A stretch of 27,276 nucleotides of DNA. It comes from a virus. This document shows, piece by piece, positions 2,840-8,901 of the stretch (position 1 is its first letter; every line of letters starts with the position of its first letter). Below the pieces are notes generated by a model. It did not search any database, was not told the DNA's origin, and worked only from the letters and a program-made list of their open reading frames with translations. Position numbers and translations under genes: made by a program. Where the stretch lies: positions 1 to 27,276 of the IMG/VR virus record IMGVR_UViG_3300020472_002243, one strand, 5' to 3'.

Positions 2840-3388
2840 ATGAGATTAGGAGTATTATGTTCTGGCAACGGAACCAACTTCGAAAATATTCTTAGATCAT
2901 GTTGGGAAGATGAGGTTGTGTTGATGATACACAATAAAAAAGACTGTGGTGCTGCTAAGAGAGCAAACAAATTTGGTATTCCTCATTGTTATATAAAACA
3001 TAAGGATGAGGAACAGATCATTCAATTAATGCAAGCATGGAGAGTTGATCTTATTGTTCTTGCTGGATACATGCAGGTGATATCACCTGAGTTTGTCAAA
3101 GCATTTCCTAATAGGATAATAAATTTACATCCATCACTGCTTCCAAAGTATAAAGGACTTCATGCAATAGAACAAGCATTAGAATCAGGTGACACTGAGA
3201 CTGGATGTACTGTTCATTATGTAAATGATGAGTTAGATTCAGGTGAAGTCATACTTCAATTGAAAGTTCCTATTGAACCTAATGATACAGTAGAAACATT
3301 AACACCTAAAATACAGAGACAAGAATATGCAATTCTTCCAGCAGCCATCCAACAAGTTAAGCAACGCATCCCAGTTGCAATTAACTGA
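2840..3388 (+). CDS. purN: Phosphoribosylglycinamide formyltransferase
   Basis: 182 residues, near the length of bacterial PurN. It transfers a formyl group from 10-formyl-tetrahydrofolate to GAR, the third step of purine synthesis. The catalytic triad is visible: N95 and H97 in INLHPSLLPKYKG and D133 in ELDSGEVI. The phosphate-binding N-terminal loop is SGNGTNFENI (8-17), and LAGYMQVIS precedes the catalytic loop. PurN is a known cyanophage auxiliary gene thought to boost purine supply for phage DNA. A GAGG ribosome site lies about 10 nt before ATG. The C-terminus may overlap the next small ORF. Confidence 0.95.
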   Translation: MRLGVLCSGNGTNFENILRSCWEDEVVLMIHNKKDCGAAKRANKFGIPHCYIKHKDEEQIIQLMQAWRVDLIVLAGYMQVISPEFVKAFPNRIINLHPSLLPKYKGLHAIEQALESGDTETGCTVHYVNDELDSGEVILQLKVPIEPNDTVETLTPKIQRQEYAILPAAIQQVKQRIPVAIN

Positions 3389-3542: not shown

Positions 3543-4227
3543 ACCAATAGGTACTTACTATAAAATCATAGATGAGTATGTTACTAGGGAAATACAACCT
3601 GTACCTAAACAAACACAAAATATATGTGATGTATTTTTGAATGGACTTCCATTAGATGAAGTTCATTCTGTCTACATCAAAGGAGAAATGAATCCAATAT
3701 ATGATATAGATTTCTCTGTTCTATCAGATACTATGCCTGATGATAGTACTACTGCACTTGAGAAACGTATCTTAGATGAGTTTGGTTTAGAGTTAGATTG
3801 TATAGTTAATAATAGAGATGGGTTTGATTGGTATGAAAGGTTTCGTATCACATGCATCTATGGTCATGACATTAGTGTAAGACATTTACATAAGAAACAT
3901 CTACCAGTTTTATTACAGGAAGATATAGATTCTATTAAGTTATTATATGAATGGTTGAGTCACTATCTTGATGAAGGTCACCCTTTACTTTTAAAAAACT
4001 ATAGACTATTCATTAAACTTATCTTAAGAAATACATTCTTGACAACCAAACTGGATGTGTTCACAAGAGATCTATATTATTGTCAGAAGTTTATTGCTGA
4101 GAAGTATCCATACTATAATGACATCACTCATATGTTGTTACAAGCATACTTAGATGGTAATGTCAGACGATACACCCTAAATAGTTGTCAAGTTTTGTTA
4201 CGACATTTACAAAATTGTATTCGTTGA
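3529..4227 (+). CDS. Hypothetical protein
   Basis: About 232 residues from the ATG at 3529 (MRQIKPIGTYYK), which overlaps the previous ORF by 14 nt; the frame is open back to an ATG at 3493. I do not recognise a family. The protein is soluble, mixed charge, with an aromatic, Leu- and Tyr-rich second half that looks helical (SIKLLYEWLSHYLDEG, NCQ-type tail). No transmembrane helix or metal motif is evident apart from scattered His residues (GHDISVRHLHKKH). Its TGA stop lies inside the -35 box of the promoter at 4224-4251, as psbA does with its promoter. Confidence 0.7.
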   Translation: MRQIKPIGTYYKIIDEYVTREIQPVPKQTQNICDVFLNGLPLDEVHSVYIKGEMNPIYDIDFSVLSDTMPDDSTTALEKRILDEFGLELDCIVNNRDGFDWYERFRITCIYGHDISVRHLHKKHLPVLLQEDIDSIKLLYEWLSHYLDEGHPLLLKNYRLFIKLILRNTFLTTKLDVFTRDLYYCQKFIAEKYPYYNDITHMLLQAYLDGNVRRYTLNSCQVLLRHLQNCIR

Positions 4228-4251
4228 TACATTTTTACTTGACTATATAAT
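4224..4251 (+). promoter_or_regulatory. Sigma70-type promoter for the riboswitch/DUF4278 unit
   Basis: TTGATA (4224-4229), 16-nt spacer, TATAAT (4246-4251). The stop codon TGA of the upstream gene (4225-4227) is contained in the -35 box. The predicted start near 4258 places a 7-bp hairpin (4257-4263 with 4268-4274, loop TTAT) at the very 5' end of the RNA, where it could protect the transcript. Confidence 0.75.
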
Positions 4252-4277
4252 ATAACTGTGTTATTATTAACACATAA

Positions 4278-4323
4278 CGTTCATCCTGATACATTCAGGA
4301 CGCAAGTAAGCCGACTCGGAACG
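4278..4323 (+). promoter_or_regulatory. Glutamine riboswitch-like aptamer 1 (glnA / Downstream-peptide type)
   Basis: P1 is CGTTC (4278-4282) with GAACG (4319-4323). An inner hairpin CCTGA/TCAGG (4285-4289 with 4295-4299) is followed by the conserved GGACGCAAGTAAG block. This layout, CGTTCATCC, hairpin, GGACGxAAGTA, GGAACG, is that of the glutamine-binding glnA and Downstream-peptide RNAs of cyanobacteria and cyanophages. The short peptide gene downstream fits the Downstream-peptide context. Confidence 0.8.
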
Positions 4324-4327
4324 AAAT

Positions 4328-4374
4328 CGTTCATCCCCCTTCGACTGGGGACGTAAAAGTTGACTAAAGGAACG
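4328..4374 (+). promoter_or_regulatory. Glutamine riboswitch-like aptamer 2 (tandem copy)
   Basis: A second copy begins 4 nt after the first: CGTTC (4328-4332) pairs with GAACG (4370-4374), an inner CCCC/GGGG hairpin lies at 4335-4350, then GGACGTAAAAGTTGACTAAAG leads into the closing arm. The last segment resembles the Downstream-peptide variant, which is proposed to form a pseudoknot. It ends about 20 nt before the Shine-Dalgarno GGAGA (4395-4399), so control of translation is likely, by inference. Confidence 0.78.
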
Positions 4375-4406
4375 GATTAAAACCCCTACTACTTTGGAGA
4401 AACCCA

Positions 4407-4526
4407 ATGGCAAAAGTCACTTATCGTGGTGTCAAGTACGACACTGATACACGTAAAGCAGATGCACCTGCTAAATCAGACATGATTTATCGTGGTGTGA
4501 AGCACAGCAGCAAGGTTGCTGCATAA
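4407..4526 (+). CDS. DUF4278-like 39-residue peptide
   Basis: A 39-codon gene with a good ribosome site (GGAGA at 4395-4399). The peptide carries the YRGVKYD motif typical of DUF4278 proteins of cyanobacteria and their phages, and it carries the motif twice: residues 6-10 (YRGVK) and 28-32 (YRGVK). The linker is Lys, Asp and Ala rich. Function is unknown; the family is linked to the glutamine-sensing Downstream-peptide RNAs, so a role in nitrogen status is a reasonable guess. It has its own promoter, riboswitch and terminator and is therefore a stand-alone regulated unit. Confidence 0.88.
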   Translation: MAKVTYRGVKYDTDTRKADAPAKSDMIYRGVKHSSKVAA

Positions 4527-4554
4527 AAATCAAAATTCACTTTTGGTTTACATG

Positions 4555-4585
4555 AATCTGGGAAATTTTTTTCCCAGATTTTTTT
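4555..4585 (+). terminator. Strong Rho-independent terminator
   Basis: A perfect 11-bp stem, 4555-4565 (AATCTGGGAAA) with 4570-4580 (TTTCCCAGATT), a TTTT loop, then a T run. It closes the DUF4278 unit. Confidence 0.92.
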
Positions 4586-4630: not shown

Positions 4631-4921
4631 ATGGTGGAAGAGAGTCAGAGAAAGGACAAAAGGAAGACAGCGAAAAGAATAATCAAGCTTGCCAAAAAGC
4701 ATCCAGAGTGGTATACTAAAGAGGATGTCAAGTACGCCAAGTATATTCGGAAAACATTAAAGAAAAAGTATGCAACAAGTGAAACTGATAACAGTCACAC
4801 CCAAAGCAGAGGAGACGATGGGGTACGTGGCGAGGGTGAGCAACCCGAACAACCAAGACAACCCAAACGTGGCTGGTTTGCTGAGTTACTGCATAAAGCA
4901 CGGTCATTGGTCAGTCTTTGA
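4631..4921 (+). CDS. Small basic protein overlapping thyX
   Basis: 96 residues. The first half (RKTAKRIIKLAKKHPEWYTKEDVKYAKYIRKTLKKK, here cited only as HPEWYTKEDVKYAKYIRKTL) resembles short cyanophage proteins with a PEWYTxEDVxYAK motif, is very basic and helical, and may bind nucleic acid. The second half, from 4770, lies in a different frame of thyX over 152 nt and is Gly, Glu, Gln and Pro rich, as expected if it is constrained by the thyX reading. No ribosome site is evident; the late promoter at 4601-4608 would give a leader of about 15 nt. I think the gene is real but its C-terminal part may be a by-product of the overlap. Confidence 0.6.
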   Translation: MVEESQRKDKRKTAKRIIKLAKKHPEWYTKEDVKYAKYIRKTLKKKYATSETDNSHTQSRGDDGVRGEGEQPEQPRQPKRGWFAELLHKARSLVSL

Positions 4922-5408
4922 GCAAGCACACATGACTGTGGAGATTGAGACTACACGTGGTCTCGCTGCACAGATATTAAGGCATAGATCATTTACATAT
5001 CAAGAGTTCTCTCAAAGGTATGCAGATGTATCTCATATCAGAGAAGACATACCCTTACCTGAACTTCGTAGACAGGACACAAAGAATAGACAGAATTCTA
5101 TTGATGATATAGATCCTATAACACAACAGAATTTTGAGATTGAGATGCGTAAGCATTTTGATCAGAGCATTGATCTCTATAAGAAGATGCTTCATGCAGG
5201 TATTGCTAAGGAGTGTGCTCGGTTTGTACTACCTCTTGCTACACCGACTCGGTTATATATGACAGGTAGTGTACGCTCATGGGTGCATTACATAGACTTA
5301 CGTTCTGCACATGGAACCCAGAAGGAACACATGGATATAGCAGAGATGGTTAGGTCTATCTTTATTCAAGAATTTCCTATAGTATCTAAAGCATTGGAGT
5401 GGAATTAA
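4770..5408 (+). CDS. thyX: Flavin-dependent thymidylate synthase
   Basis: 212 residues, the normal ThyX length. The signature RHRX7S is present: R71-H72-R73 in ILRHRSFTYQEFSQRY with S81. ThyX makes dTMP from dUMP using methylene-tetrahydrofolate and FAD/NADPH, and is a common cyanophage nucleotide gene. Other conserved parts are HGHWSVFEQAHMTVEI near residues 44-59 and the C-terminal region RLYMTGSVRSWVHYIDLRSA, which binds nucleotide. The start at 4770 lies inside the upstream ORF in another frame, with only a weak purine-rich ribosome site (AAAGAAAAAG). Confidence 0.96.
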   Translation: MQQVKLITVTPKAEETMGYVARVSNPNNQDNPNVAGLLSYCIKHGHWSVFEQAHMTVEIETTRGLAAQILRHRSFTYQEFSQRYADVSHIREDIPLPELRRQDTKNRQNSIDDIDPITQQNFEIEMRKHFDQSIDLYKKMLHAGIAKECARFVLPLATPTRLYMTGSVRSWVHYIDLRSAHGTQKEHMDIAEMVRSIFIQEFPIVSKALEWN

Positions 5409-7704: not shown

Positions 7705-7983
7705 GTATATCGGGTTCGCTACCTGATACGGGAGTGACTGAATCAAACTTGCTGGCAATGGTCTAGTTAAGGTGATGAGTCAGAGGTGGTGCTCGCTGTT
7801 GGTAACAACAGAACTGTCCAACCAGACAGGACTCATGCAACGCAGTAAAAATTTACTTATGTAGAAATGCCCTGTGTTTGTAGGTATACATTATTCCTAC
7901 CTCCCACCCCAAACCTAAGATGCAACTCGTAAGAGTGGGGCAGATGGTTTACACAAAACAAATCCAATTAAATCTAAAACAAT
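7705..7983 (+). promoter_or_regulatory. Structured 5' leader RNA of gp32 (no ORF)
   Basis: This gap of about 290 nt holds no gene. It can fold into several good stems: 7709-7715 with 7721-7727; a closing stem 7775-7781 (ATGAGTC) with 7830-7836 (GACTCAT) enclosing two hairpins, 7796-7801/7806-7811 (CTGTTG-GTAA-CAACAG) and 7814-7818/7824-7828, as a three-way junction; 7880-7884/7896-7900 (GTAGG/CCTAC); and 7925-7928/7933-7936 (ACTC-GTAA-GAGT). Two loops are GNRA type. The last 36 nt before ATG contain no G and so no Shine-Dalgarno. In T4, gp32 represses its own mRNA by binding an unstructured leader next to a folded pseudoknot; the layout here fits that, by inference. Confidence 0.65.
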
Positions 7984-8901
7984 ATGTCATTCGCAGAATT
8001 AAAGAAAAAATCCAGTAGCAATTTTCAATTCCTTCAGAAGGAACTAGAGAAATCATCATCAAACAGTAATGCTGATGATAGATTTTGGAAACCAGAAGTT
8101 GACGCAAGCGGTAACGGTTATGCAGTCATCAGATTTTTACCAGCACCAGATGGTGAGACAGTACCTTGGGCAAAGTTATATTCACATGCCTTTCAAGGAA
8201 CAGGTGGTTGGTACATTGAGAACAGTCTCACAACATTAGGTGAGAAGGATCCAGTAGGTGAAGTCAACCGCAGACTATGGAACAGTGGTGAAGATGCAGA
8301 CAAAGATACTGCACGTAAGCAGAAGCGTAAGCTTTCATACTACAGCAACATCTATGTTGTAAAAGATCCAAAGAACCCTGAGAACGAAGGTAAAGTATTC
8401 TTATACAAGTATGGGAAGAAGATCCATGACAAGATCCTTGCAGCAATGCAACCTGAGTTCCAAGATGAGACACCAGTAAATGTGTTTGATCTTTGGGAAG
8501 GTGCTAACTTCAAGTTAAAGATTAAGAAAGTAGCAGGTTACTGGAATTATGACAGCAGTGAGTTTGATAGTGTGTCTGCTCTTAGTGCAGATGATTCTGA
8601 ACTGGAAGCAACATGGAAGTTGGAGCACTCTCTCGAAGCGTTCACAGCGAAAGACAACTTCAAGTCCTACGATGACCTCGAAGCAAGATTGAATCTTGTT
8701 TTAGGTACTAGTCAACGTAGACAAGCAGCACCTGTTGCTGAAGAACTTGAGGTTCCTATCACTGCACCACCAACAGCAAGTGTTACTCCTTCATCTTTCA
8801 GAGAGAAGGTAGGTGCTTCTGCTAGTCCAGTTAAGAAGGAAGCAGTCGTTGATGATGACGATGCACTATCTTATTTTGCATCACTAGCATCTGATGACTA
8901 A
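7984..8901 (+). CDS. 32: Single-stranded DNA-binding protein gp32
   Basis: 305 residues, close to T4 gp32 (301). It coats ssDNA in replication, recombination and repair. The basic N-terminal LAST-like segment (ELKKKSSSNFQFL), the central OB-type core with GYAVIRFLPAP and YYSNIYVVKDPKNPENEGKVFLYKYG, and the acidic C-terminal tail (DDDDALSYFASLASDD) that contacts partner proteins are all present. The protein has no cysteine at all, so the zinc site of T4 gp32 is missing; the corresponding region reads GEKDPVGEVNRRL. ATG 7984 has no Shine-Dalgarno and sits at the end of a G-free leader, which suggests translational self-control as in T4. Confidence 0.96.
   Translation: MSFAELKKKSSSNFQFLQKELEKSSSNSNADDRFWKPEVDASGNGYAVIRFLPAPDGETVPWAKLYSHAFQGTGGWYIENSLTTLGEKDPVGEVNRRLWNSGEDADKDTARKQKRKLSYYSNIYVVKDPKNPENEGKVFLYKYGKKIHDKILAAMQPEFQDETPVNVFDLWEGANFKLKIKKVAGYWNYDSSEFDSVSALSADDSELEATWKLEHSLEAFTAKDNFKSYDDLEARLNLVLGTSQRRQAAPVAEELEVPITAPPTASVTPSSFREKVGASASPVKKEAVVDDDDALSYFASLASDD

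Follow-up and report, generated by a model that had tools for sequence, protein, structure and literature searches.

The window, which is the whole stretch of DNA that was analysed, is a virus record of 27,276 bases and its source phage is a T4-like cyanophage. The leader described here lies near genes for ThyX, PhoH and a gp32-like protein and near a manA RNA. Its DNA matched 104 phage records, named for Synechococcus (69), Prochlorococcus (18), Cyanophage (9) and Marine (8). Phage P-SSM2 matched the window at 92% DNA identity over 68% of the query. The manA RNA (RF01745, 160.4 bits) is located at 7708-7910, upstream of the gp32-like gene at 7984-8901, and manA RNAs were also found near the glutamine locus in P-SSM4 (L131) and P-TIM40 (L133). 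The phage also encodes a Formyl transferase domain protein at 2840-3388 (PF00551, E 2.8e-54). An ORF of 96 amino acids (phrog_14921) at 4631-4921 overlaps the start of ThyX (4770-5408) in another frame.

All features of the leader lie on the plus strand. Overlapping sigma-70-like promoter sites were predicted at 4224-4267, based on motif matches and on the upstream 60-mers of relatives. The first, TTGATA-16-TATAAT at 4224-4251, agrees with the consensus in 11 of 12 letters and the second, TTGACT-17-TATTAT at 4239-4267, in 10 of 12. TTGAC[AT] was present in 219 of the 339 distinct 60-mers upstream of the first helix (P1) in relatives. NtcA-like GTAN8TAC boxes occurred in 186 of the same 339 60-mers, compared to a mean of 5.1 (sd 2.0) after letter shuffling, and were centered mostly 50-53 nt or 12-13 nt before P1. 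No exact GTAN8TAC box was found in the 60 bases before P1 in the window (4218-4277). NtcA sites are known in cyanophages (PMC3037559). An inverted repeat lies over the -10 element at about 4257-4274 and in the same place in relatives, with arms that differ between phages (TGTGTTA, GGTCTA, GGTATG, among others). Repeats with arms of at least 5 had a median center 11.5 nt before P1 and may be an RNA hairpin or an operator.

The leader is followed by a DUF4278-like gene of 39 amino acids at 4407-4526, identified by profile matches. The ORF scored 24.7 bits against DUF4278 (PF14105, residues 3-33), just missing the gathering cut-off of 25.3, and matched phrog_5049 with an E-value of 4.5e-16. Both YRG motifs, in the form YRGVK, are kept in the protein. 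An ORF with a YRG-like motif was present downstream of 268 of 289 leaders and absent from 21, the 14 leaders at contig ends having been left out of this count. A hairpin resembling an intrinsic terminator is located 3' of the gene at 4554-4581.

Two CGTTCATCC...GGACGxAA...GGAACG units were located between the promoter and the gene, at 4278-4323 and 4328-4374, separated by the 4 nt spacer AAAT. This agrees with an earlier note on this DNA, which had described tandem units 4 nt apart in the leader of a DUF4278-like micro-gene with a promoter ahead of them. The note had also likened the units to the glnA and Downstream-peptide RNAs. Both Rfam models matched, but every score was below the gathering cut-off. 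Against glutamine-I (glnA, RF01739) copy 1 scored 25.5 bits and copy 2 34.5 bits, under a cut-off of 35 that is the curator's threshold for a single-copy model and not a structural trait. Copy 2 of the related phage P-TIM68 reached 35.4 bits. The E-values of copies 1 and 2 were 0.14 and 0.00045 against the whole Rfam library, and 3.3e-5 and 1.1e-7 when that family alone was searched in this record. Against glutamine-II (Downstream-peptide, RF01704) the scores were 25.9 and 26.0 bits, both under the cut-off of 33. The note's view of one glnA-like and one Downstream-peptide-like unit did not hold up. Copy 2 scored better as type I, with several non-standard pairs in the 3' helix of its type II match. 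A type II identity of copy 1 was rejected, as its scores on both models are level and its type II match omits 18 model positions. The 3' helix past GGAACG that marks type II was found in neither copy.

Predicted fold, pocket and switch

The unconstrained fold of 4262-4415 contained intertwined CGUUC/GAACG pairings, both on the outside and across the AAAU linker. The folding energy of this whole leader was not unusual (z -1.30). With helices enforced in 4278-4374, the intertwined fold had an energy of -26.2 kcal/mol compared to -21.4 kcal/mol for two aptamers in series. Mean pair probabilities in the free ensemble were 0.95 for the outer P1, 0.99 for P4, 0.51 for P3 and 0.0 for both serial P1s. 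A composite covariance model built from 33 related tandems with the window left out found 4278-4374 with 89.6 bits and an E-value of 3.3e-19; E-values of composite models are rough and the effective rows of this one number 1.23, relatedness being high.

In the predicted structure P1 would pair the 5' strand of copy 1 (CGUUC, 4278-4282) with the 3' strand of copy 2 (GAACG, 4370-4374), as supported by the fold, the comparison of relatives and the composite model. P4 would pair the 3' strand of copy 1 with the 5' strand of copy 2 across the linker, giving a hairpin at 4319-4332 (GAACG 4319-4323, loop AAAU 4324-4327, CGUUC 4328-4332). Each copy has a P2 hairpin. P2a occupies 4284-4300 (4284-4289 paired with 4295-4300) and P2b occupies 4334-4351 (4334-4338 paired with 4347-4351). 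The window is a compact form with short P2 loops, and in many relatives the loop of P2b holds an ORF. A single P3 would connect the cores of both copies, with its 5' strand AGCCGACU (4309-4316) forming seven of eight standard pairs and one C.A with its 3' strand AGUUGACU (4358-4365). The outer junction, composed of P1, P2a, J2/3 CGCAAGUA (4301-4308), P3 and J3/1 AAAG, would form a near-complete glutamine-I pocket. P3 would lead into a second, degenerate three-way junction of P3, the P4 linker hairpin and P2b, which includes the joint CGUAAA (4352-4357). It is probable that 4278-4374 is one intertwined RNA of two glutamine-I half-aptamers, with a pocket that senses glutamine and acts as a translational ON switch.

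The pocket was compared to single aptamers of the host group. Several of these have the order CGUUG-A-P2-CGGAAGUA-P3-GAAG-CAACG. One single aptamer, on the other strand of locus L521 in genome G275, reads CGUUC-A-P2-CGCAAGUA-AGCC-AGA-GGCU-GAAG-GAACG. It corresponds to the first part of phage copy 1 and the last part of copy 2, with a P3 loop of three letters connecting them. In the phage RNA the outer junction has the same joints, one from each copy, and the inner junction has only CGCAAA (CGUAAA in the window) and CG, so one working glutamine site is expected, in the outer junction. The three-way junction of RF01739, with J2/3 CGGAAGUA and J3/1 GAAG, is represented there with CGCAAGUA and AAAG. 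In its crystal structure the junction of the single aptamer reportedly contains a loop-E motif and a pseudoknot of one pair (PMC12510878).

Single and composite forms differed in their distribution. RF01739 matched 100 of 300 genomes drawn from the group that contains the Prochlorococcus single-cell genome G001, compared to two matches for the composite model in the same genomes; both searches used stricter filters with which weak matches are lost and a long-insert composite could be missed. The two matches were in G275, where it was a 49 nt single aptamer, and in G001, where it was on a presumed phage contig. The composite was rejected as a common host element on these counts. A host scan for the 3' half of copy 2 returned 14 contigs, two of them titled Prochlorococcus (L347, L359).

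The strand CUAAAG (4364-4369), made of the end of P3 and J3/1 AAAG (4366-4369), is a predicted anti-Shine-Dalgarno. Its partner, 4392-4397, is part of the Shine-Dalgarno stretch CUUUGGAG (4392-4399) of the DUF4278-like gene. Among 133 non-redundant loci, 112 had a six-pair match between the corresponding CURAAG and a CUUYRG-like stretch that begins 15-18 nt ahead of the DUF4278 start, and 21 lacked the full match. Letter-shuffled leaders gave a full match in 3.2 (sd 1.8) of 133. Exchanging leaders among loci still gave 103.5 (sd 2.1), so the locus-specific part of the match is small; the highest of 1000 exchanges was 110 and the observed 112 was not reached. In all 37 loci with a clear site and A as the third letter of CURAAG, the opposite letter was U. 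When the third letter was G the opposite letter was C in 35, U in 31 and another letter in 9, and 21 loci had no clear site.

This complementarity and its recurrence among relatives suggest that in the absence of ligand CUAAAG could pair with CUUUGG in the DUF4278 ribosome site, which would prevent translation. L-glutamine would bind the outer pocket and steady P3, J3/1 and P1. Ligand binding would hold the CUAAAG strand within the aptamer and so free the ribosome site, turning translation of the DUF4278-like microprotein ON. A translational ON switch for the DUF4278-like gene is likely on the basis of these sequences. In cyanobacteria, glutamine riboswitches are sited mainly before DUF4278 genes and are reported to act as ON switches, and DUF4278 corresponds to the N-terminal portion of IF17, an inhibitor of glutamine synthetase (PMC6316151).

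The same intertwined RNA might not sense glutamine at all. It could be a constitutive or protein-bound leader or respond to another metabolite, with the pocket as a relic. A C in the pocket where most host singles have G (CGCAAGUA compared to CGGAAGUA) and the Rfam scores under the cut-off fit such a leader, as does the affinity of the glutamine riboswitch class, reported as only low millimolar (PMC7266159). However, J2/3 and J3/1 are nearly invariant among relatives, CGGAAGUA itself occurs in some phages and CGCAAGUA occurs in the host-group single L521. The partner gene is DUF4278, as in cyanobacteria. We regard this explanation as unlikely.

Closing pairs and the probable shared P3 among relatives

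The letters of the closing pairs (copy 1 5', copy 1 3', copy 2 5', copy 2 3') were taken from 427 tandem joints, of which 19 with a letter missing were left out. The remaining 408 read CGCG (295), CCGG (98), TCGA (10) and CGCC (5); these and the other IMG/VR-derived counts are samples selected by motif patterns, not frequencies in nature, and redundancy is left in the joint, linker and ORF counts, where the window is present again as L001 and L002 and certain named phages may also be present as IMG/VR records. With CCGG or TCGA neither serial pair can form and both pairs of the intertwined fold are retained. The intertwined P1/P4 closing pairs are thus standard in 403 of 408 loci, compared to 295 of 408 for closure of each copy by its own P1. 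At serial P1 pair 5 both copies had a mismatch in 108 loci, and five further loci had one in a single copy.

Many of the joints came from a scan that demanded both P4 letters changed, and for this reason single-letter scans were run. P4 double mutants were found in at least 120 stretches by the pattern scan of IMG/VR, and two further scans of this collection, each for a change in one of the letters only, found 0 and 0. A second compensatory change, from C-G to U-A in the outer P1, was seen in 10 loci. On a FastTree phylogeny of the nested-ORF proteins (174 rows) the P4 state changed at least 22 times, compared to 41-50 in 30 shuffles. Supported branches gave 8 independent pairs, and both P4 letters changed together in all 8 (p 0.0078). 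For the outer P1 change there was one supported independent pair only.

The P1/P4 letter swaps were seen in a short-core type. The window belongs to a long-core type, and in the loci of this type that were read the P1/P4 letters did not vary. Its own P1/P4 letters fit both folds, and the energies favor the intertwined one.

The cores were compared in 358 of the 427 loci, those without both cores readable being left out. Core lengths were matched between copies, at 21/21 in 223 loci and 24/24 in 126. In the short type AGUCG of copy 1 stands opposite CGACU of copy 2. In the long type AGCCGACN of copy 1 stands opposite N'GCCGACU or N'GUUGACU of copy 2. The N:N' pair of P3 (C17-E8) was standard in all 92 distinct long rows (T:A 66, A:T 18, G:C 8) and the outermost P3 pair was A:U in 89, G:C in 2 and A.C in 1. 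One P3 position with C.A was A.C in 3 of the 92 rows, and another position was mostly A.C (84 of 92).

An unguided ranking by mutual information placed P2a/P2b pairs, P4, the outer P1 and P3 among its top 22, along with some neighbor effects. P4 ranked 2, the outer P1 9 and P3 11 in the short type, and P3 ranked 3, 7 and 14 in the long type, from 2.6 and 7.9 effective rows, relatedness being high. Serial P1 pairs were in neither list.

Both folds were also scored in the 33 compact relatives. The intertwined structure paired 94.5% of cells and had 10 pairs changed on both sides, four of them in P3. Two P3 positions were mostly C.A or A.C, with 24 and 18 non-standard rows. Shuffles reached the intertwined score in 0 of 500 for percentage or covariation, 3 of 500 for changed pairs and 82 of 500 for pair types. 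The serial structure paired 100% of cells and had six changed pairs, all in P2a/P2b and common to both folds. Its mean covariation score, 0.296, was slightly above the 0.273 of the intertwined structure. P1 and P4 are invariant in these relatives.

Linkers were short throughout. Among 248 joints, with up to 60 nt allowed, linkers of 3 nt (142), 4 nt (94), 5 nt (9) and 6 nt (3) were found, 236 of them at 3-4 nt and all of loop size. Linkers of this length leave no room for one platform per aptamer.

The earlier note had read the units as two separate aptamers that differ in type and may give a steeper or two-step response. In such a serial reading two glutamine-I aptamers, each closed by its own P1, would act independently on one ribosome site. 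Each unit does match RF01739 separately, and serial P1s could also form in the window and its compact relatives. Tandem glnA RNAs have been described (PMC2864571), and 157 glutamine doublets and four triplets have been counted as pseudo-cooperative (PMC9481103). Two independent aptamers were nevertheless rejected on the closing pairs, the absent single P4 mutants, the covariation of P3 across copies and the folding energy, and are quite improbable here. Covariation, folding energy and the composite model favor one intertwined RNA over two separate aptamers. What stands of the note's proposal is a glutamine-I-type RNA in a cyanophage leader ahead of a DUF4278-like micro-gene; translational control is likely.

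Genes nested in the P2 loops of relatives

A whole ORF was present in the P2 loop of at least one copy in 14 of 19 named cyanophage records, and five of the 19 were compact. These ORFs are about 49-67 codons long in the named cyanophages. P-SSM2 (L123, 1607-1756) has a phrog_504-like ORF of 49 codons in copy 2, where the window has a short loop. The nested ORF was annotated as a hypothetical protein in 13 of the 14 records, the GenBank record of P-SSM2 leaving it unannotated, and in S-SSM7 it is an annotated ORF of that record.

After removal of overlapping duplicates (585 to 554), motif units in the fetched loci fell into two length classes, 294 at 38-73 nt and 260 at 167-347 nt, with none between. 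An ATG 9-21 nt into the unit opened an ORF in 254 of the 260 long units. Six long units were dropped because their nearest 5' motif was that of copy 1, copy 2 starting CGTTGA. In copy 2 the nested ORF stopped 7 nt before the unit end in 180 of 189. It extended past the unit end in two of 254. In S-SRM01 (L139, 1562-1729) the core stop is lost (GGA for URA) and the nested ORF runs 8 nt past the aptamer end.

Sequence comparison showed that the P2 stem spanning the nested ORF covaries. Among 117 copy-2 clusters P2 pairs 1-5 were standard in 116, 115, 115, 113 and 108. Pairs 6 and 7, the rest of the start codon in most, were standard in just 58 and 49 of the 117. The mean uninterrupted P2 length was 6.03 for copy 2 compared to 4.65 (sd 0.09) with exchanged partners, and 5.86 compared to 4.01 (sd 0.31) for 28 copy-1 clusters.

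The nested ORFs also look protein-selected. The proteins tested were phrog_504 (copy 2) and phrog_6471 (copy 1). Their pN/pS was 0.32 in copy 2 and 0.21 in copy 1, and the other frames of copy 2 gave 0.82 and 1.67, each figure being based on 157 non-independent pairs. Relatives of the phrog_504-type copy-2 protein are encoded in 318 phage records. A search with this protein minus its aptamer-encoded last five residues found 44 loci; 42 lay between both aptamer halves by the strict pattern and two had a slightly altered core.

Detection of these copies depended on the model. Eight ORF-bearing copies from six loci all went unreported by Rfam at E-values up to 1, because the insert is long. The composite model touched 17 of the 17 sources given and spanned the insert in some only. 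No ORF-bearing copy with a copy-1 core was found in a scan allowing a 100-130-base gap, too short for the loops found later.

The start of the nested ORF lies within the RNA structure. In many T4-like cyanophages an ORF of about 49-75 codons begins inside the P2 stem, the A of its AUG usually being P2 pair 5, and a GGAG ribosome site is located at the P4 loop in many loci. A GAG linker (possible GGAG ribosome site) with the unswapped P4 letter was present in 150 of 232 ORF-bearing copies 2 and in 0 of 75 compact ones. Among swapped P4 joints 47 of 118 had GAG. In the copy-2 form the stop codon is usually a UAA or UGA within the DUF4278 anti-Shine-Dalgarno. Because the GGAG site and the start codon would be hidden in the folded aptamer, glutamine is expected to turn the nested ORF off. 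We tentatively propose, as a possibility somewhat short of an even chance, that the aptamer is also a gene. Glutamine would open DUF4278 and at the same time close the nested ORF, and DUF4278 would also be freed by ribosomes that finish translating the nested ORF, so that the choice between two small phage proteins would depend on glutamine and on translation of the RNA itself. In this reading the marine glutamine doublets counted as tandem riboswitches would for the most part have the one interlocked fold. That the RNA is mainly a device for coupling translation of the nested ORF, with glutamine secondary and compact forms as degenerate remnants, would fit the protein-selected ORFs of many relatives and the stop codon within the anti-Shine-Dalgarno, but is very improbable given that compact forms retain P1, P3, P4, both joints and the DUF4278 gene.

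Comparison with known glutamine RNAs

Both aptamer classes, tandem glnA RNAs, the association with DUF4278 and ON switching in cyanobacteria are already known. A glutamine riboswitch is known in an OM43 phage; the literature set was PMC2864571, PMC6316151, PMC9964418, PMC9602691, PMC9004378 and PMC3037559. In the part of the literature covered by the search, we found neither tandems that were intertwined or shared a P3 nor genes nested within riboswitch aptamers.

The phage RNA shares P1 CGUUC/GAACG, P2, J2/3 CGxAAGUA, J3/1 (R)AAG and downstream DUF4278 genes with glutamine-I (RF01739). Host-group singles of that class have a plain P3 hairpin, whereas in the phage RNA P1 would connect the two copies and P3 would also belong to a second, degenerate junction. 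With glutamine-II (RF01704) it shares the CGUUCA...GGAACG core and a short gene downstream, but past GGAACG the matches in the window omit or mispair the 3' helix of glutamine-II.

The glnA RNA is in print for cyanophages (PMC9964418, PMC9602691). That of S-CREM1 and other cyanophages is of the same locus type, with L129 1489-1581 scoring 87.0 bits on the composite model. It was named at 164330-164232, and the accessible portions of those papers do not mention an intertwined fold or nested genes.

If the intertwined reading is true, a presumed aptamer pair becomes one intertwined aptamer with a shared helix. Protein genes nested inside riboswitch aptamers are present in many marine cyanophages. 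Phage reading of the host nitrogen state would also become testable. Published glnA doublets likewise have two motif copies in tandem and may be the same fold. In the available part of PMC9481103 they are treated as separate pseudo-cooperative aptamers, whereas the phage copies would instead form each other's helices, which suggests that counts of tandem glutamine riboswitches deserve a second look.
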